Positions 30,881 to 46,922 of a DNA stretch of 64,000 bases are shown here, piece by piece. The position numbers were made by a program, and so were the translations under genes. The notes beneath the pieces were generated by a model. It searched no databases, had not been told where the DNA came from, and saw nothing but the letters and a program-made list of their open reading frames with translations. Source of the stretch: an uncultured Spirochaetaceae bacterium (GTDB taxonomy: Bacteria; Spirochaetota; Spirochaetia; Sphaerochaetales; Sphaerochaetaceae); assembly GCA_900315435.1 (NCBI GenBank), contig OMYY01000007.1, forward strand, positions 1 through 64,000, in the 5' to 3' direction. Within the stretch, counting starts at the first letter, position 1. Each line of letters begins with the position of its first letter.

Positions 30881-31546
30881 ATGGAAGAAATCGTAAACCT
30901 GGAGCGCAGGACTGTCACCGACGCGGTGTACGAGCAGCTGAGGAAAGACATCATCGAGATGTTTTATCAACCCGGAGAACGTCTTTCCGAACAGAAAATC
31001 GCTCAGCGGTATGGCGTGAGCAGGGATCCGGTGCGTAAAGCCGTTTCCCGCTTGGTGCAGGAGAATTTGCTGATCAGCAAGCCGCAATGCGGAACGTTCG
31101 TGAGCGAGCTTTCGATCAAGCAAGGAAGAGAGGTTTGCGAGATTCGGCTCTTGCTGGAAGCGCATGCGGTGCGCACCGCGTGCGCTCATATCCCGCAAGA
31201 GGAGTTGGACCAGCTGGTTTCCGATCTCGAGAAGACGAGACGGATTGCAGAAGAGGAAGACGAGGAGGAAGCGAGACAGTACATCTATCGTCTGGACGAA
31301 CAGATGCACAGGATAATCTGGAAGTACTGCGGCAATGAGATGATCGGGAGCATCATTCGTTCCTATGACTTCATCGTAAAGCGGATCCAGATTTCCAACA
31401 TGCAGTACCATCGCCGCAAGAGCGGAACGCTCTTGGAGATGGGAAAGATCATTCTCGCACTCGCAAATAAGGATGTGGATGCGGCGGTGAAAGCCATGGA
31501 GATCCACATCGGCAACATTAAGAAAACATTGGTGGAATCCCAATGA
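30881..31546 (+). CDS. GntR-family regulator, FadR/FCD subfamily
   Basis: A 221-residue regulator. The N-terminal winged helix (LRKDIIEMFYQPGERLSEQKIAQRYGVSRDPVRKAVSRL) is followed by an all-helical FCD ligand domain (CEIRLLLEAHAVRTA, DEQMHRIIWKYCGN, AMEIHIGNIKKTL). FCD regulators commonly respond to organic acids. Encoded between the enzymes and the transporter, it probably senses the imported acid or a product and controls the operon, perhaps through the palindrome at 26948-26959. A ribosome-binding site GGAG lies 6 nt before the ATG. Confidence 0.92.
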   Translation: MEEIVNLERRTVTDAVYEQLRKDIIEMFYQPGERLSEQKIAQRYGVSRDPVRKAVSRLVQENLLISKPQCGTFVSELSIKQGREVCEIRLLLEAHAVRTACAHIPQEELDQLVSDLEKTRRIAEEEDEEEARQYIYRLDEQMHRIIWKYCGNEMIGSIIRSYDFIVKRIQISNMQYHRRKSGTLLEMGKIILALANKDVDAAVKAMEIHIGNIKKTLVESQ

Positions 31547-31570: not shown

Positions 31571-32569
31571 ATGAAAAAGACAGTTGCAATGGTCTTCGCG
31601 CTCGCCCTGTCGGCCGGCTTGGCATTTGCCAATGGCCAGGAAGAGACAGGTGCATCAAAGAATGCGGCGAGTTCTTTCCCGAAAAAGGAAATCACCGTAA
31701 TCGTACCTTGGAATCCCGGTGGGACGAACGACTTGATGGCTCGTGCGATGCAGCCGGTCTTCAAGGACAAGTACAACGTGAACCTTGTGGTGAAGAACGT
31801 GCCCGGCGGTGGAAGTGCGGTCGGTATCGGCGAAGTTCTGACGGCAAAGAATGACGGATATACCGTAGGTCTTGCTTCCAGCTCCTATCTGGCCCTCATG
31901 GCTCAGGGAAGAGTTCCGACGAAAATGGAAGACATGACGATCGTCAACAACGTGGCCAGCGAGCCGGTCGTGTTGACCGTCAAGAAGGGTGGCAAGTTTG
32001 CGACGGCACAGGAACTCCTCGCCGCGGCAAAGAGTGCGCCCAAGGCCGTTTCTTGCGGCATCCCCGGTTCGAACAACGTCAACCAGGCGTACGCCACCTT
32101 GTTGGGCGAAGCGGCAAAGGTCGAGTTCAACTTCATGCCCTTTGATGGCGGCAGCCGCGTGATTGCCGAGCTGATCGGCGGCCATGTCGATTGTGGTATC
32201 TTGAAGCCGAGCGAAGTCATCGCCCAGGTGCGGGCTGGCGAGCTGGCCATCCTTGCGGTATGCAACAAGGAAGGTCTTGGTGCCCTGGCCCCCGAAGTCC
32301 CGACGGCTGAGAAGCTGGGCTACGACCTGTTCCGGCTTGGCAACATCCAGCAGACCTCGTTCATGATGGCGCCAAAGGGAGTGGATCCCGCCGTGACGGC
32401 CAAGCTTGCCGAGATGTTCAAGGTGGTGCTTGAGTCCGAAGAATACAAGAAGTTCGCTGATGGTGTCGGTATCATGCCCACTCCTCTGACGGGAGATGCA
32501 TGCAAGAGCTTCATCGACGAGGTGTATGCCGGCCTTGAGAAGGCAAGCGCCGAAATCTTTACCAAATAA
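31571..32569 (+). CDS. tctC: Tripartite tricarboxylate transporter substrate-binding protein (TctC)
   Basis: A 332-residue periplasmic binding protein. The signal peptide MKKTVAMVFALALSAGLAFA is followed by the TctC fold: ITVIVPWNPGGTNDLMARA, VVKNVPGGGSAVGIGEV, and FDGGSRVIAELIGGHVD. It captures a carboxylate in the periplasm and delivers it to TctAB. The usual binding loop residues around PGGTND and the GG-containing second loop are present. A GAGGAGC ribosome-binding site precedes the ATG. With the catabolic genes upstream, the ligand may be a small hydroxy acid such as glycerate, tartronate or lactate; this is inference. Confidence 0.92.
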   Translation: MKKTVAMVFALALSAGLAFANGQEETGASKNAASSFPKKEITVIVPWNPGGTNDLMARAMQPVFKDKYNVNLVVKNVPGGGSAVGIGEVLTAKNDGYTVGLASSSYLALMAQGRVPTKMEDMTIVNNVASEPVVLTVKKGGKFATAQELLAAAKSAPKAVSCGIPGSNNVNQAYATLLGEAAKVEFNFMPFDGGSRVIAELIGGHVDCGILKPSEVIAQVRAGELAILAVCNKEGLGALAPEVPTAEKLGYDLFRLGNIQQTSFMMAPKGVDPAVTAKLAEMFKVVLESEEYKKFADGVGIMPTPLTGDACKSFIDEVYAGLEKASAEIFTK

Positions 32570-32586
32570 CTACTTAAGTTGTATCC

Positions 32587-32604
32587 CGGCTACCGAAAGG
32601 TAGC
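32587..32604 (+). promoter_or_regulatory. Intercistronic hairpin between tctC and tctB
   Basis: GGCTACC / GGTAGCC form a perfect 7-bp stem with loop GAAA, followed by GGATTGAGGGG rather than a T-run. This suits an mRNA stabiliser or partial attenuator separating the abundant binding protein from the membrane subunits. Confidence 0.5.
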
Positions 32605-32621
32605 CGGATTGAGGGGAAATC

Positions 32622-33140
32622 ATGTCTCTACGAACTCGTTTTCGAAAAACAGAGAACATCGTGCTCGTGCTGCTCGCTGCTTTCTTTTCCTTTTTGTTTT
32701 ATGTAGCCTCCACCAGCGAGTCGTACAACTTCGACGGCATCGCTTCGATGACCTTCCCGAAATGGATTATCGGTTTCACCATCTTCCTGAGCGTCTTGAA
32801 GCTCGGTATGAATCTGTGTGCGAAGTCCGACCCGTCCGAAGAAAGTAAAGTCGAAAAAGCACCCGAGCTTGTCGATGGGCTTTCCCATCAAGCAAGCAAC
32901 CGGAAGAAACTGATTTCTCTCGTGGGAATCATTATCTACGCCTTCCTTTGGAATTTTCTTGGCTTTGGGTTGAGCACGGTGCTTTTCGTCACGCTTGAAT
33001 CGCATTACCTCAGGCCGAAAACCCCGTTCCTCAAATGCCTCCTGGTGGGTGTTGGAGCGACGCTCGTGCTGTATTTCGTGTTTGGTTTCTTATTCAATGT
33101 CGACTTCCCGGAGCCGATTTTGGAACTGATCTTGGACTAG
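32622..33140 (+). CDS. tctB: Tripartite tricarboxylate transporter small membrane subunit (TctB)
   Basis: A 172-residue membrane protein with four hydrophobic helices (IVLVLLAAFFSFLFYVAS, IIGFTIFLSVLKLGMNL, LISLVGIIIYAFLWNFLGFG, LLVGVGATLVLYFVFGFLF), the TctB layout. It is the small subunit of the transporter and lies 10 nt upstream of tctA. A hairpin-like GGCTACCGAAAGGTAGCC at 32587-32604 between tctC and tctB may tune expression so that the binding protein is made in excess. Confidence 0.85.
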   Translation: MSLRTRFRKTENIVLVLLAAFFSFLFYVASTSESYNFDGIASMTFPKWIIGFTIFLSVLKLGMNLCAKSDPSEESKVEKAPELVDGLSHQASNRKKLISLVGIIIYAFLWNFLGFGLSTVLFVTLESHYLRPKTPFLKCLLVGVGATLVLYFVFGFLFNVDFPEPILELILD

Positions 33141-33150
33141 GAGGGCATCT

Positions 33151-34644
33151 ATGACGTTTACTACCATTGTTTCTGGTTTCTTGGCCACTCTTACGAGTCC
33201 AATGACCTTGTTTTGTACCTTGCTGGGTACTTTTGTCGGTCTGGTATTTGGTTCGCTTCCTGGACTTTCCGCGACCATGGGAGTGGCGCTGCTGATTCCC
33301 ATGACCTTCACGCTGACGCCCACCAATGCTATTGGAATGCTGCTTGGCGTCTACATCGGAGGCATCGCCGGAGGTGCGGTTTCGGCAATCTTGTTGAATA
33401 TCCCCGGAACCCCTTCCTCGGTGGTCACGACCATCGACGGATATCCCATGACGCAAAAGGGACATGCCGCACGTGCTCTTGGATGGGCGGCGTTCTCTTC
33501 CGGATGGGGCAGCATCATCAGCTGGTTGTTGCTGATCACCATCTCTCCTGTCCTGGCGAGGCTGTGCACGAGTTTCGGATCTCCCGAGTATGCCGCATTG
33601 GCGTTCTTCGGTCTTTCCATCATCGCAGCGGTTTCTGGCGAATCCATCATCAAAGGACTGGTTGCCGGTCTTTTGGGCGTGTCCCTTTCTTTTGTGGGAA
33701 TCGACCCGATTTGGGGTGATCTCCGCTTCACGTTCGGGAACATCAACCTGATGGGTGGCATCAGTACCATCGCCGCACTGATCGGCTTGTACTCGATTCC
33801 CCAGATTCTGGACAGTTGTCTGAGCCCGGACAACAAGAAGGTGTCCGGCAAGGAGCTCTCCATCAAGGAGATTGTACCTCCTTTGAAGGAGCAGGCCGCT
33901 CATGCCATGGACATCCTTCGCTCCTCGTTGATTGGTACGATAATCGGCATCATTCCTGCTACCGGAGGAAACATTGCTGCATTCATCGCCTATGACCAAG
34001 CGAAGCGGTTCAGCAAGAACCCGGATAACTTCGGCAAGGGAGAACCCGCCGGCATCATCGCCAGCGAGGCTTCGAACAACGGCGTGTGTGGTGGTGCCTT
34101 GATTCCCATGATGACGCTCGGCATTCCGGGCGACAGCGTCACCGCTGTCCTGATGGGTGGCTTGATGATCCATGGCTTGCAACCGGGACCGGCGCTTTTT
34201 ACCGATCATGCTCCGGAAGTGGTGGGTATCTTCACGACTGTGCTGATTGCGACGATCTTCATGGTCGCCCTCCAGGTCTTTGGCATCAAGATTTTCGTGA
34301 AGACCTTGAATGTACCGATCAACTATCTGGATGCCGTCTTGGTCGTCCTCTCCTTGGTCGGCTCCTATGCCATCCGTGGAAACATGTTCGACGTTTACCT
34401 GACGCTCTTCTTCGGTGTGGGGGGATACCTGCTGAAGAAAGGAGGGTTCCCCATGGCGCCCGTAGTCTTGGGTCTTGTCTTGGGCAGCATGTTCGAAGGG
34501 GAATTCCGACGAGGCATGAAGCTTGGCGGCGGCAACATCGCGATCTTCTTTACCCGCCCGGTTTCCTTGCTGTTCATCTTGATCACCATGGCGGTCATCA
34601 TCTCGACAGCAATTCGGGCCCACTCCCGGAAACAGAAAAAGTGA
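33151..34644 (+). CDS. tctA: Tripartite tricarboxylate transporter large permease (TctA)
   Basis: A 497-residue polytopic permease. It has the conserved TctA signatures GLVFGSLPGLSATMGVALLIPMTF, LNIPGTPSSVVTTIDGYPM, IIGIIPATGGNIAAFIAYDQAKR and PMMTLGIPGDSVTAVLMGGLMIHGLQPGP, with about ten to twelve membrane helices. It forms the channel driven by an ion gradient. It is the last gene of the operon and is followed by a terminator 24 nt later. Confidence 0.95.
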   Translation: MTFTTIVSGFLATLTSPMTLFCTLLGTFVGLVFGSLPGLSATMGVALLIPMTFTLTPTNAIGMLLGVYIGGIAGGAVSAILLNIPGTPSSVVTTIDGYPMTQKGHAARALGWAAFSSGWGSIISWLLLITISPVLARLCTSFGSPEYAALAFFGLSIIAAVSGESIIKGLVAGLLGVSLSFVGIDPIWGDLRFTFGNINLMGGISTIAALIGLYSIPQILDSCLSPDNKKVSGKELSIKEIVPPLKEQAAHAMDILRSSLIGTIIGIIPATGGNIAAFIAYDQAKRFSKNPDNFGKGEPAGIIASEASNNGVCGGALIPMMTLGIPGDSVTAVLMGGLMIHGLQPGPALFTDHAPEVVGIFTTVLIATIFMVALQVFGIKIFVKTLNVPINYLDAVLVVLSLVGSYAIRGNMFDVYLTLFFGVGGYLLKKGGFPMAPVVLGLVLGSMFEGEFRRGMKLGGGNIAIFFTRPVSLLFILITMAVIISTAIRAHSRKQKK

Positions 34645-35949: not shown

Positions 35950-36250
35950 GATTGATACGGGTGCTTCCCTTTGTATGGTACCTGTATCACCTCCAAACTA
36001 CCATACCAGCGTTCTGGGGATTTGATTCTTGAAGGAGGAGAACGTGCTTGATCGGGTACAGAAGGGACCAACCGGAATCGGAAAACGGGGTTCAGTTACG
36101 GCTTTGCCATGGTAGTGCAAAAAGAAGTCTCTGAAGTGCAATAAATGAATATAACGATACATTGTAAATAAATAACCATTGTTGCTCTTGTGGTTTACAA
36201 GAAAAATGGTACCTAATTTCAATTTTTTCATAAATTTTCTCAAATTCGTG
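35950..36250. other. AT-rich region without a supported gene
   Basis: Only short frames of poor composition occur. The last 60 nt (around 36200-36250) are very A+T-rich and may act as an UP element for the promoter at 36251. Confidence 0.5.
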
Positions 36251-36280
36251 TTGACACTGCTTGCCAAATCTTATTATATT
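36251..36280 (+). promoter_or_regulatory. Strong sigma-70-type promoter of a candidate small RNA
   Basis: A consensus TTGACA (36251-36256) and TATATT (36275-36280) are separated by 18 nt; TTATAT at 17 nt is an alternative. An A+T-rich stretch precedes the -35. Transcription would start near 36287. No open frame with a ribosome-binding site follows. Confidence 0.75.
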
Positions 36281-36348
36281 CCGTGTCAAGAAAAGATAAC
36301 GACATGCGAGAGTTCTTTTGAACTTAAAGCAAACAACGGGATTTTTTC

Positions 36349-36389
36349 TAACCTCCTTTTGTGACCGACCTTGGGTTTAACCTCCTTTT
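36349..36389 (+). repeat. Direct repeat of a 12-nt anti-Shine-Dalgarno-like motif
   Basis: TAACCTCCTTTT occurs identically at 36349-36360 and 36378-36389, 17 nt apart. The copies sit just before and inside the terminator hairpin of the candidate small RNA. Exact duplication of an ACCTCCTTT motif in a non-coding transcript suggests selection. Confidence 0.7.
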
Positions 36390-36405
36390 CCCGGGTCGGT
36401 TTTTT
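36364..36405 (+). terminator. Rho-independent terminator of the candidate small RNA
   Basis: ACCGACC (36364-36370) pairs with GGTCGGT (36394-36400), possibly extended by GGG/CCC inside, followed by six T. The large loop displays the second TAACCTCCTTTT copy. Confidence 0.75.
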
Positions 36406-37994: not shown

Positions 37995-38379
37995 ATTAAA
38001 TCATTCTCGGTTGATGGATTCCGGAGACTATTTTCTCTAATCCAATGTGTACACGAAGTCGGGACGAGTTGTTCTTCTTGATGGGAATTTCTTGCTTTCT
38101 GGATAAGTCTATTCAGGTCGGCAAAGGCGATCATGGACTTGTTTCAGGTGGACCATTATGACATGGAACTGGTTCCTAGGAACAAGAAAAACATTGCCCA
38201 TAACTCAATCTTAACGGACTACTACCAAAAGACATGTTCATCTTAACAAGTTACAATCAATTCATATGCTCAAATGTCTCTTGATGGAAAAGAGGAGGGG
38301 CGAAATTTCTGAATTATCAACAAAAGTCTTTCATTTTTCACAAGAGGCACATATTCTAAAAAGGAGAAGGACTTTTACT
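37995..38379. other. Intergenic region at the left edge of the defence island
   Basis: Base composition becomes visibly AT-rich here. A perfect 12-bp palindrome GTTCCTAGGAAC lies at 38172-38183, about 200 nt upstream of the GHKL gene. A short frame from 38133 (MDLFQVDHYDMELVPRNKKN) has no start signal and may be a gene fragment. No integrase or attachment repeat was found. Confidence 0.5.
38172..38183. promoter_or_regulatory. Palindrome upstream of the MORC-Z1 operon
   Basis: GTTCCTAGGAAC is a perfect 12-bp inverted repeat about 200 nt before the GHKL start. It could be an operator for the island, but no promoter is clearly associated with it. Confidence 0.3.
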
Positions 38380-39849
38380 ATGCCAGAAACTCGGCAGGCA
38401 ATCCCGTCTGCTTACAATACTATTAATTCCAATCGATGTGTTGGATACGAGATGGGAACAGCATTGGCGGATATCGTTGACAACAGCATTTCTGCCCATG
38501 CAACCAAGGTCGATATCTTTGCTTTTCCAAATCCTCTTTCCATTGCGATTTGTGATAACGGAACAGGAATGGATCAGGAAGGCTTAGACAATGCCATGAC
38601 CTTTGGGGGGAAGGGAAACACTTTTCAGAGATCGCCGGAGGATTTAGGGCGATTCGGCTTAGGCCTTAAAACTGCGTCATTGTCCCAATGCAGGCAACTG
38701 ACTGTTATCACCAAAAAAGATGGTGTTGTTCTCGGCGGACGTTGGGACATGGATTATTTGGAAAACCACAACGAATGGAACTATCTTATTGTTCCTGAGG
38801 AGGAATGCCGGCAAGAAGTATCCCGGTCTCCATTGAGTAATTATGCATCAGGCACCCTCGTTATCTGGAAGAAATTTGATACTCTTGAAGATTCGGCCAC
38901 AAACGTCCAAGCCTCCTTTGCAAAACAAACAGAATTAGCTCGGAAACATCTTGAGTTGGTCTTTCACCGTTACCTCTCCGGCGAGGAAAACCTCTCCAAA
39001 ATAAGTATGGCATGGAATAAGCGTTTGCTTGAGCCTAACGATCCATTCTTGACGGGAAAGGTTGGAGAAGTATCTCCTCCTATACCACTCCATTATAATA
39101 ATTCCACAATTATTGTTATTCCACATAAATTGCCTTATCCATCACAGGCAAAGAAAGAAACGAAAAGCCGTGAACTGGCGGATTTGGCTCTGGGTAAAAC
39201 CTTGTTAGAGACCCAAGGCTTTTACATATACCGGAATAAACGGCTAATCAGCTGGGGGTCTTGGTTCAGGTTGGCGCCCAAACTCGATCGAACGAAACTT
39301 CTTCGGATTCAGGTAGATATCCCAAATTCGCTTGATTCGTATTGGCACTTGGATATCAAGAAATCGACAGCTTTTCCTCCAGATGCAATCAGGCAGCAGT
39401 TGAAGAACATCTTGGACCATCACGAGGAGTTTAGTGTCCGGACATTCAAGAGACGAATTTCCCAACAAACAAAATCACAAGTTCCCTATTGGAACAGAGT
39501 AACAAGTCCGGACGGTGCTGTTGAGTATACAATCAATAAGATGCACCCTCTTGTCCAAGAGTTGTCCTCGGCTTTGCCAGATAATAAGAAATGGATTGTT
39601 TCCTCATTGCTTGATGATTTGTCGACCTTTTTCCCTGTTGCTTCGTTGCAAGCAGATCTTCAAGGTGACGCGTCAATCAAAAATGAGGATACGGTGGACT
39701 CGTATCAGGAAGAAGCTATCTGGAAGAAAATCGACATTTATTTGTCTCTTGGATATGACTTGGACAAAATAAAAGAGATTTCTCCAATCAGCGATTATCT
39801 GGAATATTTTGAAACATACATGCTACAGAAAGGGCAAACAAATGGATGA
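38380..39849 (+). CDS. GHKL ATPase of the MORC/MutL-like restriction-system type
   Basis: A 489-residue protein. The Bergerat ATP-binding fold fills the N-terminal 200 residues: N-box ALADIVDNSISA (28-39), G1 motif DNGTGM (59-64) and G2 motif GRFGLGLKTAS (90-100). A transducer-like region (YIYRNKRLISWG, DIPNSLDSYWHLDIKKS) and a helical C-terminus follow. This matches the MutL-related ATPases described in restriction-modification contexts as relatives of eukaryotic MORC proteins. It probably works as an ATP-gated DNA clamp. The ATG at 38380 follows AAGGA; an upstream ATG at 38266 has no such site. It overlaps the Z1 gene by 8 nt. Confidence 0.85.
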   Translation: MPETRQAIPSAYNTINSNRCVGYEMGTALADIVDNSISAHATKVDIFAFPNPLSIAICDNGTGMDQEGLDNAMTFGGKGNTFQRSPEDLGRFGLGLKTASLSQCRQLTVITKKDGVVLGGRWDMDYLENHNEWNYLIVPEEECRQEVSRSPLSNYASGTLVIWKKFDTLEDSATNVQASFAKQTELARKHLELVFHRYLSGEENLSKISMAWNKRLLEPNDPFLTGKVGEVSPPIPLHYNNSTIIVIPHKLPYPSQAKKETKSRELADLALGKTLLETQGFYIYRNKRLISWGSWFRLAPKLDRTKLLRIQVDIPNSLDSYWHLDIKKSTAFPPDAIRQQLKNILDHHEEFSVRTFKRRISQQTKSQVPYWNRVTSPDGAVEYTINKMHPLVQELSSALPDNKKWIVSSLLDDLSTFFPVASLQADLQGDASIKNEDTVDSYQEEAIWKKIDIYLSLGYDLDKIKEISPISDYLEYFETYMLQKGQTNG

Positions 39850-42661
39850 TAATGAAATCTTGAATAGTGTGAGTGAGGGACTAGTCAACTATATCAGAGA
39901 TCGACAAGAAAAATGCTCTCTTAGCACAAAGGAGAGCTTTGTCCAATATGCCAATCGCTGGATAAATCAAGCGCCTGATCTTTACGATGGATTTCAAGTC
40001 TCTGATGGTGCCAAACAATTCCTGTTAAAGGAAATGTTTGAGAAAGTATATATTTCCCATAGTATGGAAACCGGAGTAGGCATTCATGCAGAGGATTTTA
40101 CCTCATGGCTTTTCGATAAAAAAGACGAAATAAATTTTCGGTTTTGGAATCGATTTGTTGCATATCTCAAAAACAAACCAGGATGGACCGACGAATCCAT
40201 CGAAAAACTGGATGAGGATTCTGACAAGGTGTTGGATTTTGCGGGAGATCCCACACGCAATGGTGAGTGGCACCGGCGAGGACTAATGATTGGAGACATT
40301 CAGGCAGGGAAAACAGCTAACTATACTGCAGTCATCAACAAAGCTGCCGATGTTGGATACAAAATCATTATTGTCCTGACGGGAATGACAGAAAACTTAC
40401 GAATCCAGACGCAAAATCGCTTCGACACGGACTTTGTGGGCATTGTTAACAATAAACCAGCTGGTGTTGGTCTCTTTGACCATAGCAAGGGATTCCCTAC
40501 TCCTTTTGAACGTACAACGGCCAAAGAAGACTTCAATGTACGTACTGCAAACTCTCAAAATTATCCTCTTGGGCAGAAAGTCTCTTTATTTGTGTTAAAG
40601 AAGAATCAAGCCATTCTCAACCGCTTGCTTTCTTGGCTGGCAGAGTTCTCTCAAAAAACCAATATGGGGAAAATTCCCATTCCTGTATTATTCGTGGATG
40701 ATGAGTGTGACTACGCCTCAGTTAATACGCAAGACAACGACCTGAACCCAACTGCCATCAATACGGCAATTAGGGCAATTCTAAAGAAATTTTCTAGAAC
40801 TTCATATTTGGCGGTTTCCGCCACGCCTTTTGCCAATATCTTTATCGACTCGGAGACGGAAAATGAAGCCCTTGGAGACGACCTTTTCCCTGCAGATTAT
40901 ATTTATCTTCTTCGGGCAGCGGAAAAGAATCCTAACTATCTTGGTTCAACAAAACTATTCGTTGATTTCCCCACGCCTCCATATAACCGGGTATTGGTGG
41001 ACCTTGATCCAGAGGAGGTGGAACAGTATCTTCCAATCAAACACAAGAAGGATCTGTATGAAAAGATTAACGGGATTGCCGATCTTCCCCCTTCTTTGAT
41101 TGATGCTCTCAGATATTTCTTGCTTGTTCAAGGCGTTATGGATTGTTTCCCTTCGGTGAAAGGAAAGCATCGAAGTATGCTCATCAATGTTTCTCGTTTT
41201 ACAAAAGTGCAATCACGGATAAAAAAAGCTATTCAGGATTGGTTGGATGATGATGTCCTTCCTTCAGTCAATCAATATGCGCAAGTGCCTGAAATGCTTT
41301 CGCAACTGGGGGGAACCGAGTACTACAACCTGTATCTTGTCTGGAAGACATATCATTTGGCAGAAATAACTCATATGGATTGGGCCACCTATAGTTGCAA
41401 GTATCTTTCCCAAACCATCAATCAAGTGAAAGTGTGTGAGGTCAACCAGAGCAAGGAAGCAGAGGAACTGGATTTTGATGCTCATAAAGGAAAAGGTATT
41501 CGCATTATTGCTGTGGGAGGTCTTAGCCTATCCCGTGGATTGACACTCGAAGGATTGGTCGTAAGTTACTTCTATCGGAATACCAAATCCTATGACACGC
41601 TCATGCAGATGGGGCGATGGTTTGGATATCGAGGTAGCTATATTAAGTTGTTCAAAATCTGGATGACGCAAGAGGCCCAAAGTGACTACCAGTCTATCAA
41701 TGAAGCCGTTTTAGACTTGAAAGTGCAAATCGAACGAATGAACGAGTTGAAGCAAAGGCCACAGGATTTTGGGTTGATGGTACGGCGGAATAGTTATACT
41801 CAGTTGATTATTACTAGCCGGAACAAGATGCGTCATGCAAATATGACCGAGAAAATCCCCATTGCTATTGCAGGACATTGTATTGAGACGCCAAGACTTT
41901 GTTTCAATTCTCAAATTTTGGAAGAGAATTCTGAGCTTGTGCATTCGTTTGTGAAAGAGGTAAGTAGAATTGGTGTAAAAGCTGCCCCTTCGGAACATCT
42001 TATCCAAGAGAAGGACGCTCTTTGGCACAGGATTCCTAAAAAGACAGTCGCCCAGTTCGTTCGAAACTTCAAAACAGATAAATTTAGCTTGAATTATCAA
42101 GCGGAACCATTAGCCGATTATATTGAAAACGATTTGAGTGTTTCCGATTGGGATGTTGGGTTTTCCGTGCTTACCAATGAATCTGTTTGTGGTCGTGACA
42201 CGTTCGAGGTCGCATATGGAACAATAAGTGTTCCAATAATTGGGCGTGGAGCGAAAAGGGAGGGGGACATTCTGAAAGTCGGGGACCATTCTGTACGTAT
42301 CGGATCTAGTATTGCCTGCCGTTTAGGAATGACGGAAGAAGAGTATGCCCGGCGAAGGGCTAAAAATAACAAAGACCATGGGAGTGGTTCGCTCGTAGAT
42401 AGTAATCTTCTCTTTGACCGGAAAACTCCTATCTTAATCCTTTACTCTATTAGTGTTTATGAGTCTTCCAACAAGGGTTCTAAGCCAAAAGAACCTTTTC
42501 CTGACGTCAAATCGCCGATATATGGCATTGGATTAGGATTTGCATCCTCTTCGAAAGAACGTCCGACAGGCCAGTCGTTTGTATATTTTGAAAATACTGT
42601 TGCGCAACGGCAAAACCAAGAAATTGAAGAATTTGCGGAGGATGATGCGGATGAAGAGTAA
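39842..42661 (+). CDS. Z1-domain superfamily 2 helicase-like protein
   Basis: A 939-residue protein. A helical N-terminus (1-140) precedes a P-loop GDIQAGKTAN near residue 150 and motif II FVDDECDYAS near 286, followed by SATPFANIF. The Z1 domain (PF10593) covers the middle: RGLTLEGLVVSYFYRNTKSYDTLMQMGRWFGYR, where the MQMGRWFGYR segment is the helicase motif VI equivalent. Z1 proteins accompany MORC-like ATPases in restriction systems and probably translocate or remodel DNA. It starts 8 nt inside the GHKL gene and overlaps the next gene by 11 nt. Confidence 0.88.
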   Translation: MDDNEILNSVSEGLVNYIRDRQEKCSLSTKESFVQYANRWINQAPDLYDGFQVSDGAKQFLLKEMFEKVYISHSMETGVGIHAEDFTSWLFDKKDEINFRFWNRFVAYLKNKPGWTDESIEKLDEDSDKVLDFAGDPTRNGEWHRRGLMIGDIQAGKTANYTAVINKAADVGYKIIIVLTGMTENLRIQTQNRFDTDFVGIVNNKPAGVGLFDHSKGFPTPFERTTAKEDFNVRTANSQNYPLGQKVSLFVLKKNQAILNRLLSWLAEFSQKTNMGKIPIPVLFVDDECDYASVNTQDNDLNPTAINTAIRAILKKFSRTSYLAVSATPFANIFIDSETENEALGDDLFPADYIYLLRAAEKNPNYLGSTKLFVDFPTPPYNRVLVDLDPEEVEQYLPIKHKKDLYEKINGIADLPPSLIDALRYFLLVQGVMDCFPSVKGKHRSMLINVSRFTKVQSRIKKAIQDWLDDDVLPSVNQYAQVPEMLSQLGGTEYYNLYLVWKTYHLAEITHMDWATYSCKYLSQTINQVKVCEVNQSKEAEELDFDAHKGKGIRIIAVGGLSLSRGLTLEGLVVSYFYRNTKSYDTLMQMGRWFGYRGSYIKLFKIWMTQEAQSDYQSINEAVLDLKVQIERMNELKQRPQDFGLMVRRNSYTQLIITSRNKMRHANMTEKIPIAIAGHCIETPRLCFNSQILEENSELVHSFVKEVSRIGVKAAPSEHLIQEKDALWHRIPKKTVAQFVRNFKTDKFSLNYQAEPLADYIENDLSVSDWDVGFSVLTNESVCGRDTFEVAYGTISVPIIGRGAKREGDILKVGDHSVRIGSSIACRLGMTEEEYARRRAKNNKDHGSGSLVDSNLLFDRKTPILILYSISVYESSNKGSKPKEPFPDVKSPIYGIGLGFASSSKERPTGQSFVYFENTVAQRQNQEIEEFAEDDADEE

Positions 42662-43625
42662 ATTTGATAAAACAGAAGACGAAATCATCAATGAGCTGAC
42701 GAGATTGTGGGGAGAGGATCTTTCTCTTTCTCATCTTGATACAAGCAGGTTCCTTTTTGGTGAGGCGCATCCCTATGACTGGAGAATCGGTCTCGATAAG
42801 GAAGGCCACCGGCAACTTATTTTTGAATCAGGAGTTTCTGCTCGGCTGAAAGGGAAAGGGTTTTCTTCCCAATTGGTCCGGTGCGATGAGAAACCAATTC
42901 CTTCCAACAAAGTGTATGATCTCCGATTTACGTTGTTGAAAGAGGATGTTCTGGATGTTTTCTTGGTTCTTTGTAAGGACCTGATTCAGCTTTCTGCGCG
43001 ATGTGATAGTCCTCGTGATGCAGTACACGAGATAATCAATCGTTTCCGGCTGTGGAAGCTCATGATGGGACGTGGACAGAGTCATGAGGAAGTTGTGAAG
43101 GGCTTGATGGGCGAGTTCCTGATGATTCAGCAATTAAAGCAGCTCGGCTATATGCCGGGAGAGGTTGTTCAAGCTTGGACTGGCCCAGAATATACGGATC
43201 AGGATTTTGTCTTTCCTGCGAAATGGTTTGAGGTGAAGACGTGCAATTCCTCATCGTCCAAAATCACCATCAGTTCTGCGGACCAACTTGATCGGGAGGG
43301 TGAAGGCTGGCTTTATGTGTTCAAGTTGGATCGGGCGGACCGAAGTGAAAAGGGCGCGATTTCTCTGAGCATTGTGGCGGCAGATCTCTTGAATAGCTTT
43401 TTCCAGTCTGATCCGGAAGCGACCCAGAAATTTCAAGAGAAGCTGATGAATACTGGACTGGACGTTCTAGTAGGGGATGATTCCTGTTGGTTCCTTCGGA
43501 AAGGGTTTACGCGGTTCGCTATCGAAAGAGACTTTCCTCGACTCACTCATACAATAAAGAAACCAGAAATCGATTCCATTCGGTATGAACTCCTGTTGGG
43601 GCATTTGGACAAATGGAGAAAGTGA
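42651..43625 (+). CDS. PD-(D/E)XK motif protein (DUF4420 type)
   Basis: A 324-residue predicted nuclease. The PD-(D/E)XK core is visible: Glu in GLMGEFLM near residue 148, Asp in YTDQDFVFPAK near 183 and FEVKTC near 192, where the E-x-K supplies the metal site. The N-terminal half (YDWRIGLDKEGHRQLIF, DLRFTLL) matches DUF4420 proteins. It is likely the DNA-cutting subunit of the MORC-Z1 system. The ATG at 42651, 9 nt after GGAGG, is preferred over the one at 42645. It overlaps Z1 by 11 nt, and the AIPR gene begins 2 nt after its stop. Confidence 0.82.
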   Translation: MKSKFDKTEDEIINELTRLWGEDLSLSHLDTSRFLFGEAHPYDWRIGLDKEGHRQLIFESGVSARLKGKGFSSQLVRCDEKPIPSNKVYDLRFTLLKEDVLDVFLVLCKDLIQLSARCDSPRDAVHEIINRFRLWKLMMGRGQSHEEVVKGLMGEFLMIQQLKQLGYMPGEVVQAWTGPEYTDQDFVFPAKWFEVKTCNSSSSKITISSADQLDREGEGWLYVFKLDRADRSEKGAISLSIVAADLLNSFFQSDPEATQKFQEKLMNTGLDVLVGDDSCWFLRKGFTRFAIERDFPRLTHTIKKPEIDSIRYELLLGHLDKWRK

Positions 43626-43627
43626 CA

Positions 43628-45799
43628 ATGGATAATGAACATGCTTTGAAAGATTTCTTTGTGTCAGAAATGAGTTCGACACAGAATCGTGCAACCGACG
43701 AGGGGATTGCTCTATCTCTTGCATATATCAACTTGGTGCTTGACCAAGTGAGGGATACGAATGTCTATTTCGATCCGAAGGTGTTCTATTGGGCAGGAAA
43801 GACGTCTTCTCGAGGTGATATCGTTTTCTATGGGTACGATTATGATGAAACAAGTCACACCTTTTCTTTGTTCTCAAGTGATTTTGATGCCGATTTTGAG
43901 AATGGACCGCACGTAGTCGGGAAAACGCTATTGATGGATCTCGCAGAGAAAGCAAGTCGATTTGTGACAGAGACCTTTGGGAAGGATTCTTCTATTTTCA
44001 AATCCAAGTTGGACAATGATGCGCTCGACTTGTATGAGTTGCTTGTTGCTCAAATGCGGACCCCTGAGGGAATCAATAAGATCAATTTGACCATCTTCAC
44101 CAATGGGCAACTCTCCAGTCGCATGAAAGAACTTCCCCAAAAAAGTCCGTTCAGTGGTATAGACTTAGCTGTTCAAGTGTGGGATATCGAACGCATTTTT
44201 GCCTTAAGTGAATCTTCTCAAGATCATGAGTCAAAGGTGATTTGTGCAGAAGACTATCCGGAATTGAACGGTGGTATTCCCTGTGTCGAAATTCCTCAGG
44301 ACCCGAGCAACCATTTCAAATGTTACCTCGGCTATGTTCCGGGACTGTTTCTTGCAAATATCTATCGAAAGTATGGTTCGACTATCTTGGAAGGCAATGT
44401 GCGGTCCTTCTTGTCAACCACTACATCCGTCAATAAGAATATTCAGAGTACCATCAACAAAGAACCGGCAAAGTTTTTTGTATATAACAACGGTATCGCG
44501 GTAACCTCTTCGGAGGTTGTATTATCGCCAGACCGAATGCGGATTGTATCAGTCAGAAACTTTCAGATAATTAATGGAGGACAGACTACTGCTTCTTTAG
44601 CGTATGCGGCGCTGAAAACGAAATCGGATCTTTCAAAAATTTCTGTCCAGATGAAATTGACGGAAATTGGTGACGACAACCAAGATGAATACAATAATAC
44701 AATTCAAGCAATTTCCCATTCCTCCAATAGCCAGAATAAAGTCTCGGAAGCGGATTTTTTTGCCAACCATCCATTCCACGTCGAAATGGAAAAAATCGCA
44801 ATGAGGACTCCGGCTACCAATCCTTCCGACAGGCACTTGACATATTGGTTTTATGAGCGTTCCAAAGGAAGCTACAAACAAAAGCTTATTTTCCAGTGTC
44901 AGACTACAGCTCAAAAAAACGATTTCAAGATGAAGTACTCAAAGGATCGTCTTGTCACAAAGCTTGATTTCGCAAAGTACTATAACACTTGGAAAGAGTT
45001 TCCAGATCAAGTCAGTAAAGGTGCAAATACTAATTTTATCCATTTGGCGAAACAGATAATTGATACGTGGGATACCAGTGCTGCAAAATACAATGCCTAC
45101 TTCTTTAAAGAAGTAATTGCGGTTGCAATCATGTTCCGGTGGCTTGAGAAGCATATTAACGTAAACAACCCTGATACCGATTGGTACAATGGTGGCTATC
45201 GTGCAAATATCATCACTTACGCACTATCCAGTCTTTTTTATTTGATTCGCACGAAGAAGGACGGGATGGTGTTGGACTTGGTTCGTATTTGGAATGAGCA
45301 GGATGTTCCTACCTGCCTCGCCAGAGTTTTGTTATGTCTTTCCCGTCAGGTGTTCGATATCATCACTGGAGACCGTGATGTCGAGAACGTAACTCAGTGG
45401 TGTAAACGTAGCAAATGCTGGCAAACTGTTAAGGAGAGAATCGCGTCTTTCAGCATGCTTTCGTTCATTAACCCGTATTTGATTGACAGCACTGAAGCGG
45501 AAGAAGCATCAGCTGAAGCAACAATGGATCAAAAACAGATAATTAAGGATTCAACCCTTATCAGTGTTTTCGATGCGAATCATCCCATCGAAGCATGGCA
45601 GTCGTTGCTAGACTTCTGTAATGATTCTGCGAATCAAAGGGTACTTCGGATTAGCGAGGAGAGTCCCTATTTAAAATCGGTTCATCAGGTTGTGAGGTAC
45701 TCGCAACATCTCGTTTTTAATCTGACAAGTGTTGAACAGAAGCGGGCGCTTCTCCTTTGGAAAAGTGCTGAGGACTTTGGATGGAAGCCAGACAACTGA
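43628..45799 (+). CDS. AIPR-family protein (abortive infection phage resistance)
   Basis: A 723-residue protein with the AIPR domain (PF10592) in the middle: KFFVYNNGIAVTSSEV, VRNFQIINGGQTTASLAYA near residue 316, and AISHSSNSQNKVSEADFFAN. The family was first seen in lactococcal abortive-infection proteins and occurs in MORC-Z1 clusters; its biochemical role is not established. The N-terminal 150 residues (YWAGKTSSRGDIVFYGYDYD) may form another nuclease-like fold. The start at 43628 follows GGAGAAAGTGACA; an ATG at 43613 lies inside the preceding gene. Last gene of the four-gene operon. Confidence 0.85.
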   Translation: MDNEHALKDFFVSEMSSTQNRATDEGIALSLAYINLVLDQVRDTNVYFDPKVFYWAGKTSSRGDIVFYGYDYDETSHTFSLFSSDFDADFENGPHVVGKTLLMDLAEKASRFVTETFGKDSSIFKSKLDNDALDLYELLVAQMRTPEGINKINLTIFTNGQLSSRMKELPQKSPFSGIDLAVQVWDIERIFALSESSQDHESKVICAEDYPELNGGIPCVEIPQDPSNHFKCYLGYVPGLFLANIYRKYGSTILEGNVRSFLSTTTSVNKNIQSTINKEPAKFFVYNNGIAVTSSEVVLSPDRMRIVSVRNFQIINGGQTTASLAYAALKTKSDLSKISVQMKLTEIGDDNQDEYNNTIQAISHSSNSQNKVSEADFFANHPFHVEMEKIAMRTPATNPSDRHLTYWFYERSKGSYKQKLIFQCQTTAQKNDFKMKYSKDRLVTKLDFAKYYNTWKEFPDQVSKGANTNFIHLAKQIIDTWDTSAAKYNAYFFKEVIAVAIMFRWLEKHINVNNPDTDWYNGGYRANIITYALSSLFYLIRTKKDGMVLDLVRIWNEQDVPTCLARVLLCLSRQVFDIITGDRDVENVTQWCKRSKCWQTVKERIASFSMLSFINPYLIDSTEAEEASAEATMDQKQIIKDSTLISVFDANHPIEAWQSLLDFCNDSANQRVLRISEESPYLKSVHQVVRYSQHLVFNLTSVEQKRALLLWKSAEDFGWKPDN

Positions 45800-45810
45800 T
45801 TTTTCAGTTG
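45793..45810. terminator. Shared hairpin formed by two convergent stop codons
   Basis: CAACTGA (45793-45799) and TCAGTTG (45804-45810) form a perfect 7-bp stem with loop TTTT. Each arm encodes the last codons AAC-TGA of one of the two converging genes. It could end transcription from both sides, but it lacks a T-run. Confidence 0.5.
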
Positions 45811-46853
45811 AGACTTGCTGGTACGGAAGGGTAGGGACTATGCATGAAGGTCTTGAGTACAGCTTCCACAATGATTTGTGCCCCGACAGGAGGAACCGCC
45901 ATGCCTATTTGCTTTCGCACTTCTGTGATGCTACCCATAAATTCATAATCATCAGGGAAGGTTTGGAGTCGCGCTCGTTCTCTGTTGGAAAGTGATCTGT
46001 TTTCGCTCCAATGATACATACGAGTTCCGCCACCACCCGAACCAGTAACTGTATATGCGGGGAGCTCTGGGTCCAGTCGTTTATAAATGTTGCTGAGTTT
46101 TGCGCCTTTCACATGAAGAGCCAATTCTGGAGGAATCGGTGAATTGAATGCATTCATTCCTGGCTTGATGTATTTCAATCTTTCGATTACACGTGCTGAA
46201 TCTCGACCAATTTCATTATTGGGGACATTATCCGGGATGTCCATGAGTGCTTTGCTACTAGAGACGTGGGCATTGATAAAATTTGGTTTGGGTACCTTGA
46301 ATTCAAGCGCAAGGTTATTTCTGATTCCAACAATGATTACCCTGTGCCTTGTTTGTGGTATGCCGTAATCTTCAAACTTATAGAGATTTGCGCATAAACG
46401 GTATCCGCTATCTTCAAGAGCATCTAAGATTATTTTGAATGCTTTTCCCTTATTAGATGACCGAATTCCTCCTACATTTTCGGCGATGAACCAATCTGGT
46501 TTGAATATATGGAGTACCTTGACGCCATATTGGTATAGGCCTCCATATTTTCCATCTAAACCTTTATGTTCTCCCACGATAGAGAAATCGTTACAGGGAA
46601 AGCCGAAGGCGAACGCATTGATTTTAGGAAGCTTGGCGAAGTCCAAGGTCCGTACGTCTTGGCATATGACCGAAGAAGGCTTGTCAGGACAGATGTTCCT
46701 TGTATAGGTCAGACAAGTGCTTTTGTCATAATCCGAAGACCATTTATGAACCACTTTTGCGCCTTGCACATGAGCATGAGTGGCTCCCCAGGCAAGCCCT
46801 CCAGGTCCACAGAACAATTCACCTAATTGGAATACAATTTTTTCTGAAAACAT
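45804..46853 (-). CDS. DNA (cytosine-5) methyltransferase, second copy
   Basis: A 349-residue C5-cytosine methyltransferase. Motif I is ELFCGPGGLAWG, motif IV GFPCNDFS (catalytic Cys at 87), motif VI ENVGG, motif VIII QTRHRVIIVG, and motif X near VGAQIIVEAV. The catalytic loop reads PCNDFS rather than PCQPFS, and the target domain is short. It lies 69 nt downstream of the Dcm-like gene on the same strand, so the two may be cotranscribed. It may protect a second site or belong to the MORC-Z1 set. The ATG at 46853 is chosen; a GTG at 46922 would give 23 more residues but has no ribosome-binding site. Confidence 0.88.
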   Translation of the reverse strand: MFSEKIVFQLGELFCGPGGLAWGATHAHVQGAKVVHKWSSDYDKSTCLTYTRNICPDKPSSVICQDVRTLDFAKLPKINAFAFGFPCNDFSIVGEHKGLDGKYGGLYQYGVKVLHIFKPDWFIAENVGGIRSSNKGKAFKIILDALEDSGYRLCANLYKFEDYGIPQTRHRVIIVGIRNNLALEFKVPKPNFINAHVSSSKALMDIPDNVPNNEIGRDSARVIERLKYIKPGMNAFNSPIPPELALHVKGAKLSNIYKRLDPELPAYTVTGSGGGGTRMYHWSENRSLSNRERARLQTFPDDYEFMGSITEVRKQIGMAVPPVGAQIIVEAVLKTFMHSPYPSVPASLN

Positions 46854-46922
46854 AAAATTCCAGTATACCTTACCAAAAAGCAAAACAAAATGGCAGCCCC
46901 TTTTGGGGGGTAATAGATGCAC

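Follow-up and report, generated by a model that had tools for sequence, protein, structure and literature searches.

The window analysed here is a 64-kb stretch of DNA from a genome of 2.8 Mb, and the best promoter match found when the whole of it was scanned is a sigma70-type element on the plus strand at 36251–36280, with TTGACA at −35 (36251–36256), an 18-nt spacer and TATATT at −10 (36275–36280), giving 11 of 12 matches. It is followed, also on the plus strand, by a predicted small RNA (sRNA) of about 119 nt (36287–36405), which has homologues and no conserved ORF, and whose start was placed from the −10 element. Three parts follow one another in the predicted fold: a 5′ hairpin (36289–36349) in which the purine-rich 5′ end pairs with a U-rich stretch preceding the first motif, a free linker carrying the first copy of an anti-Shine-Dalgarno (anti-SD) motif, TAACCTCCTTTT (36349–36360), and a terminator hairpin (36365–36399) carrying the second copy in its loop (36378–36389). 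The terminator, recognized from fold and covariation, has the form CCGACCTTGGG-loop-CCCGGGTCGG followed by TTTTTT (36365–36405), with a G+C-rich hairpin and a U-tract that can be read directly as a run of six Ts (36400–36405); an automatic terminator scan did not call it because loops of 3–8 nt are allowed and this one has 14 nt. The folding energy of the RNA is −36.5 kcal/mol (z=−3.6), and none of 200 shuffled sequences was equally stable.

The 12-mer TAACCTCCTTTT occurs three times in the genome, two of these being the pair in the window. The third (L001) has no hairpin or terminator context and scores 8.7 bits with an early covariance model, R1, whose RNAalifold structure was poor because MAFFT had misaligned the stems. 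Comparison with relatives revealed no conserved reading frame on either strand of the sRNA locus, and a 61-aa ORF that overlaps the region (36179–36364) is not conserved. A sequence-only reading of this DNA had proposed an sRNA of about 120 nt between a promoter and a terminator, free of coding frames and bearing two identical motif copies, one free and the other in the terminator loop; each of these features can be read at the positions given above, and the proposal is borne out.

The sRNA gene is free-standing, and of 68 called ORFs downstream of it in the various genomes, 40 are convergent. In many relatives (among the loci L021–L063) it lies between a 6-phosphofructokinase gene, upstream on the same strand, and a convergent gene that we take to be pgi, and a second neighbourhood (L185, L191 and L197) places it between what are presumably a CorC-like gene and leuS, these three names being our own assignments from the ends of the sequences. 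The locus in the window has lost the conserved neighbourhood; a convergent PHP-domain gene lies downstream. Elsewhere in the window, 38266–46922 is an Mza-type anti-phage defence island, encoding an MzaB-like GHKL ATPase (38266–39849), an MzaC-like Z1 protein (39809–42661), an MzaE-like protein (43613–45799) and a C5 cytosine methyltransferase (45804–46922). The translations from 31571–34644 suggest a tripartite tricarboxylate transporter, with its binding protein and both its small and its large membrane subunit, and an apparent GntR-type regulator (30881–31546) accompanies this candidate set.

Conservation and architecture of the RNA

The 3′ half of the sRNA is present across relatives (loci L005–L033), and their alignment shows little or no change in either copy of ACCTCCTTT, against free variation in the terminator stem. 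A second covariance model (R2), made from a 58-nt core with the stem set by hand, matches 215 of 395 Spirochaetia genomes; in the family to which the window belongs, the Sphaerochaetaceae, the figure is 84 of 92. Members of the phylum beyond Spirochaetia gave only weak matches, with E-values of 3×10−5 or worse, so that matches within the class weaker than about 10−5 are not individually trustworthy. When 80 named genome contigs with an exact double motif were scanned, 30 fell below an E-value of 10−6, all of them from spirochaetes, and the sole further match was a weak archaeal one; the double-motif sequences of other phyla do not form the terminator hairpin. Chance duplication of the 12-mer was considered and is ruled out by the conservation of the sRNA in relatives.

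Covariation was evaluated on 65 distinct sequences aligned to the model. Each of the ten pairs of the terminator stem shows changes on both sides and 99.2 % of cells are paired, which none of 500 shuffles equalled, although the alignment is fitted to the structure being tested and this flatters the result; when the structure is slid along the alignment, pairing falls to 70 % at best. The terminator loop, CCTCCTTT, hardly varies while the stem covaries. Since every stem pair has changed on both sides and the loop is nearly fixed, selection maintains a hairpin with a fixed loop rather than any particular stem sequence.

The architecture is not uniform across the class. Within the window's family both motif copies are unpaired in most folds, and single-sequence folding gives most members a 5′ hairpin similar to that in the window, whereas in other families copy 1 can lie within a small CAUC/GAUG hairpin. 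At L182 and L190–L193 the upstream motif is missing or degenerate, and at L185 and L196 there are two consecutive hairpins, each with ACCTCCTTTC in its loop; these two-hairpin variants closely resemble the cuckoo RNAs of alphaproteobacteria. The constant part across all variants is the motif copy in the terminator loop. We note also that a U-run and CAU precede copy 1 in some sequences (L034, L032 and L013, for example), giving complementarity to an SD, a start codon and AAA codons.

The sequence-only reading had made conservation of the motif copies in relatives a point on which it would stand or fall. It is not refuted on this point: the pair is kept by most members of the window's family and by the families with the ECF-type promoter described below, and some other lineages have the terminator-loop copy alone or place each copy in the loop of a hairpin. 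Strong support for an sRNA with anti-SD motifs comes from its promoter and terminator together with conservation and covariation, the class-wide spread and the covarying stem being findings beyond the sequence-only reading, and comparison of sequences confirms that the window holds a real sRNA gene, one of a family spread over much of the spirochaete class. No Rfam family reaches its threshold with the spirochaete RNAs, and identity with a known Rfam family is rejected on this ground; nor did we find a spirochaete RNA family of this kind described in the text of the open-access literature.

Promoters and a conserved ECF sigma factor

Promoters of two types precede the sRNA. Most members of the window's family have a sigma70-like element some 95–100 nt ahead of copy 1, while outside this family the sequence TGTAAC-N15-18-KGTT is seen in 30 of 75 model matches, mostly 58–72 nt before copy 1. 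Searched for in a stricter form, the TGTAAC element occurs 27 times in eight genomes, compared to five occurrences of the reversed pattern, and the sRNA is among its locations in all eight. In two of these genomes a further occurrence lies 6 nt upstream of the start codon (ATG) of an ECF sigma factor gene, relatives of which are present in 56 of 61 genomes; wherever the upstream region is readable, TGTAAC-N-GTT lies a few bases before the ECF sigma start, and this includes the window's own genome. The gene there (L320; G000:C45:46581-47084) and its relatives (L290–L327) usually follow the end of a cysS-like frame, and the promoter, TGTAAC-N16-GTT, is only a few bases from the ATG, so the ECF sigma mRNA is probably leaderless. 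In the window's own genome the next gene encodes a zf-HC2 protein, a probable zinc anti-sigma factor.

Within the shared genome set, all 45 genomes positive for the sRNA have the ECF sigma gene and five of the 12 negative ones lack it, with no instance of the sRNA in a genome without the ECF sigma gene. A Fisher test computed by hand gives a value of about 2×10−4 for this association, a figure that ignores kinship and counts as positive a few weak model matches. The copy in the window has a sigma70-type promoter without the ECF element, although its genome retains the ECF gene and relatives outside the family do match the element. Gene, structure, conservation, promoter types and co-occurrence with the ECF gene are all computational observations. 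The shared promoter and the co-occurrence suggest that the sRNA was probably an original member of the ECF regulon or joined it early, the window's family probably having switched promoter, and what is understood of ECF factors and zinc anti-sigma proteins would point to envelope or redox stress as the inducer.

Pairing potential and candidate targets

The segment ACCTCCTTT is identical to the 16S rRNA 3′ tail of seven relatives, and the motif ACCUCCUUU likewise corresponds to this tail in the relatives read; the flanking bases differ from 16S rRNA and extend the potential pairing to AAAAGGAGGU(U/C). All 61 genomes searched for Hfq gave a negative result, with control genomes positive. The sRNA is predicted to be an independent RNA with an exposed and conserved anti-SD seed, as trans-acting anti-SD sRNAs are.

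The sequence-only reading went on to suppose that such an RNA would selectively silence genes with an SD leader, and in this form the idea finds no support. The pattern AAAGGAGGT-N2-8-ATG has just 10 sites in the genome, a number equalled by its reversed control, and so shows no enrichment, and SD matches of at least 5 nt are found for 14 of 43 genes in the window versus 7 of 43 in a within-gene control, with the matches being weak. With equal site counts, and judged by this pattern alone, the silencing of all leadered genes is unlikely, and the target set is likely to be a small group of mRNAs with strong SDs.

Pattern searches in a few genomes of the window's family, in which many perfect-SD sites were internal or trivial, found such sites at genes for solute-binding proteins, permeases and GntP. 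A family search identifies L245 as a solute-binding protein (SBP_bac_8, E-value 4×10−35), as it does L335 and, weakly, L347, and L334 and L355 are solute-binding proteins by appearance. The predicted duplexes of the sRNA with five such leaders have energies of −16 to −22 kcal/mol, compared to a median of −8.7 kcal/mol for a 15-nt motif on the leaders of ORFs in the window, where the query lengths were slightly different; in the window's own genome the strong-SD leaders of a solute-binding protein and of a GntP permease would pair at about −16 kcal/mol or better. These searches established no conserved target, and a shared site, AAAGGAGGTCGATG, was rejected as one because it precedes reading frames of just 1–42 aa. 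From their leader sequences, the mRNAs of solute-binding proteins and transporters are the leading target candidates, to be taken as a lead only; genes for solute-binding proteins may in any case often carry strong SDs. The predicted pairing of the sRNA with these leaders is comparable in strength to that of the 16S tail, and the sRNA would therefore have to be abundant.

Known anti-SD RNAs and a proposed mechanism

Among Rfam families the best scores are to LhrC (RF00616) of Listeria monocytogenes, at 35.1 bits for L004, 34.9 for L016 and 32.4 for L007, all below the gathering cut-off of 110. LhrC has seeds in loop A, the linker and the terminator loop that pair at the SD, does not need Hfq for its action on lapB, and is induced by cell-envelope stress (PMC4132741). 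The likeness lies in the succession of 5′ stem-loop, single-stranded stretch and terminator, and in CU-rich anti-SD seeds that occur both in this stretch and in the terminator loop, the two places where the window RNA has its own. It lacks the third seed that LhrC carries in loop A of its 5′ hairpin, the 12-mer being present only twice, and there are further differences: the LhrC seed is CUCCC..UUUU rather than ACCUCCUUU, LhrC is present in five copies per genome under LisRK whereas spirochaetes usually have one, and the phyla are different.

The alphaproteobacterial cuckoo RNAs, among them NfeR1/alpha-r14 and CcsR, offer other parallels. NfeR1 is independent of Hfq and uses anti-SD loops to repress the mRNAs of ABC-transporter binding proteins (PMC10746234), a kind of target that resembles the spirochaete candidates; the cuckoo and alpha-r14 RNAs present fixed CCUCCUCCC loops on variable stems (PMC3927594, PMC10746234); and the CcsR RNAs are transcribed behind an RpoHI/RpoHII promoter (PMC10253847). 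Shared with the spirochaete RNA are the fixed anti-SD loop, the freely changing stems and the redundant copies, together with, for CcsR, the position behind a stress sigma factor promoter. Cuckoo, alpha-r14 and CcsR RNAs have CCUCCUCCC in three or four hairpin loops, whereas the window RNA has ACCUCCUUU, with one copy free and one in the terminator loop, and CcsR matures by processing of an operon transcript that it shares with a DUF1127 gene. The csRNAs of Streptococcus pneumoniae, present in several copies and driven by CiaRH, have a stretch complementary to both SD and AUG between two stem-loops, and resemble the spirochaete sRNA through this SD-complementary stretch and the link to a stress-response regulator. 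The plan itself has been proven functional in LhrC (PMC4132741) and in NfeR1 (PMC10746234). By analogy, the best reading is that the spirochaete RNA is built like LhrC and NfeR1, which does not imply homology. As far as the evidence goes it would act as they do, but it lacks the sequence features by which LhrC and the cuckoo RNAs are recognized, and a new family of anti-SD sRNAs is the most fitting description.

We therefore favour, with a probability of about three in four, a trans-acting and Hfq-independent sRNA that occludes strong SDs and belongs, in much of the class, to an ECF regulon. The 5′ hairpin and the terminator hairpin would display two redundant CCUCCUUU seeds, the linker offering one and the terminator loop the other; by pairing with the strong SDs (AAAAGGAGGU) of mRNAs, these seeds would keep 30S subunits away. 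In much of the class the sRNA would be in the regulon of the conserved ECF sigma factor, which probably reads its own promoter and is paired with a probable zinc anti-sigma factor, and in the window's family the same RNA would be driven by the sigma70-type promoter. Its probable effect would be to lower the synthesis of selected proteins, with exported solute-binding proteins and transporters as candidates, under stress of the envelope or redox type. We infer transcription of the gene, occlusion of SDs, the identity of the targets and the nature of the inducing stress.

Four other explanations deserve comment. We consider it unlikely that the sRNA is a translation governor for the whole class, an ECF-controlled copy of the 16S tail made under stress that competes with ribosomes at all strong SDs; if it were, mRNAs with weak SDs or without leaders, the ECF sigma factor's own among them, would gain in translation at the expense of the rest. 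It is improbable, too, that the RNA silences no mRNA and is instead a decoy of the 16S 3′ end that binds a protein (a ribosomal protein such as bS1 or bS21, or a 16S-maturation factor) or a G-rich RNA, as might be argued from the nine nucleotides that match the 16S tail, nearly fixed across the class, and from the rarity of long complementary SDs; the extended pairing provided by the flanking bases argues against this, as do the failure to copy the GAUCA upstream of the 16S tail and the action of known RNAs of similar shape on mRNAs. Comparable doubt attaches to an antisense regulator devoted to a single mRNA or a handful of specific ones, recognizing the start codon through U-rich-CAU together with the SD. 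CAT directly precedes copy 1 in 16 of 38 distinct copy-1 sequences (8 % expected), and the reverse reading, AAAAGGAGGTNNATGAAAA, is an SD with a start codon, but neither the window's clade nor the Treponema-like copies have this CAT, the small CAUC/GAUG hairpin can also account for it, and two equal, redundant seeds suggest several targets. Very improbable indeed is that the element is not a free RNA, being either a leader or attenuator, for which one group's position before leuS on the same strand might speak but which is rejected for the mixed and often convergent orientation of the downstream genes, or else a set of ribosome-binding sites serving a small gene of the minus strand, on which some copies do read AAAAGGAGGTNNATGAAAA but ORFs are absent or of unrelated lengths (2–55 aa) with none conserved, and T-tract and promoters alike are on the plus strand.

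The spirochaetes have here an sRNA family of deep conservation, whose structure can be computed, whose seed is fixed and which is probably part of a sigma factor circuit. It repeats, apparently independently, the design of LhrC in Listeria and of NfeR1 in rhizobia, and this makes it possible to ask by experiment, in culturable laboratory strains of Sphaerochaeta and Sediminispirochaeta, why stress responses with no relation to one another have arrived at anti-SD loops.
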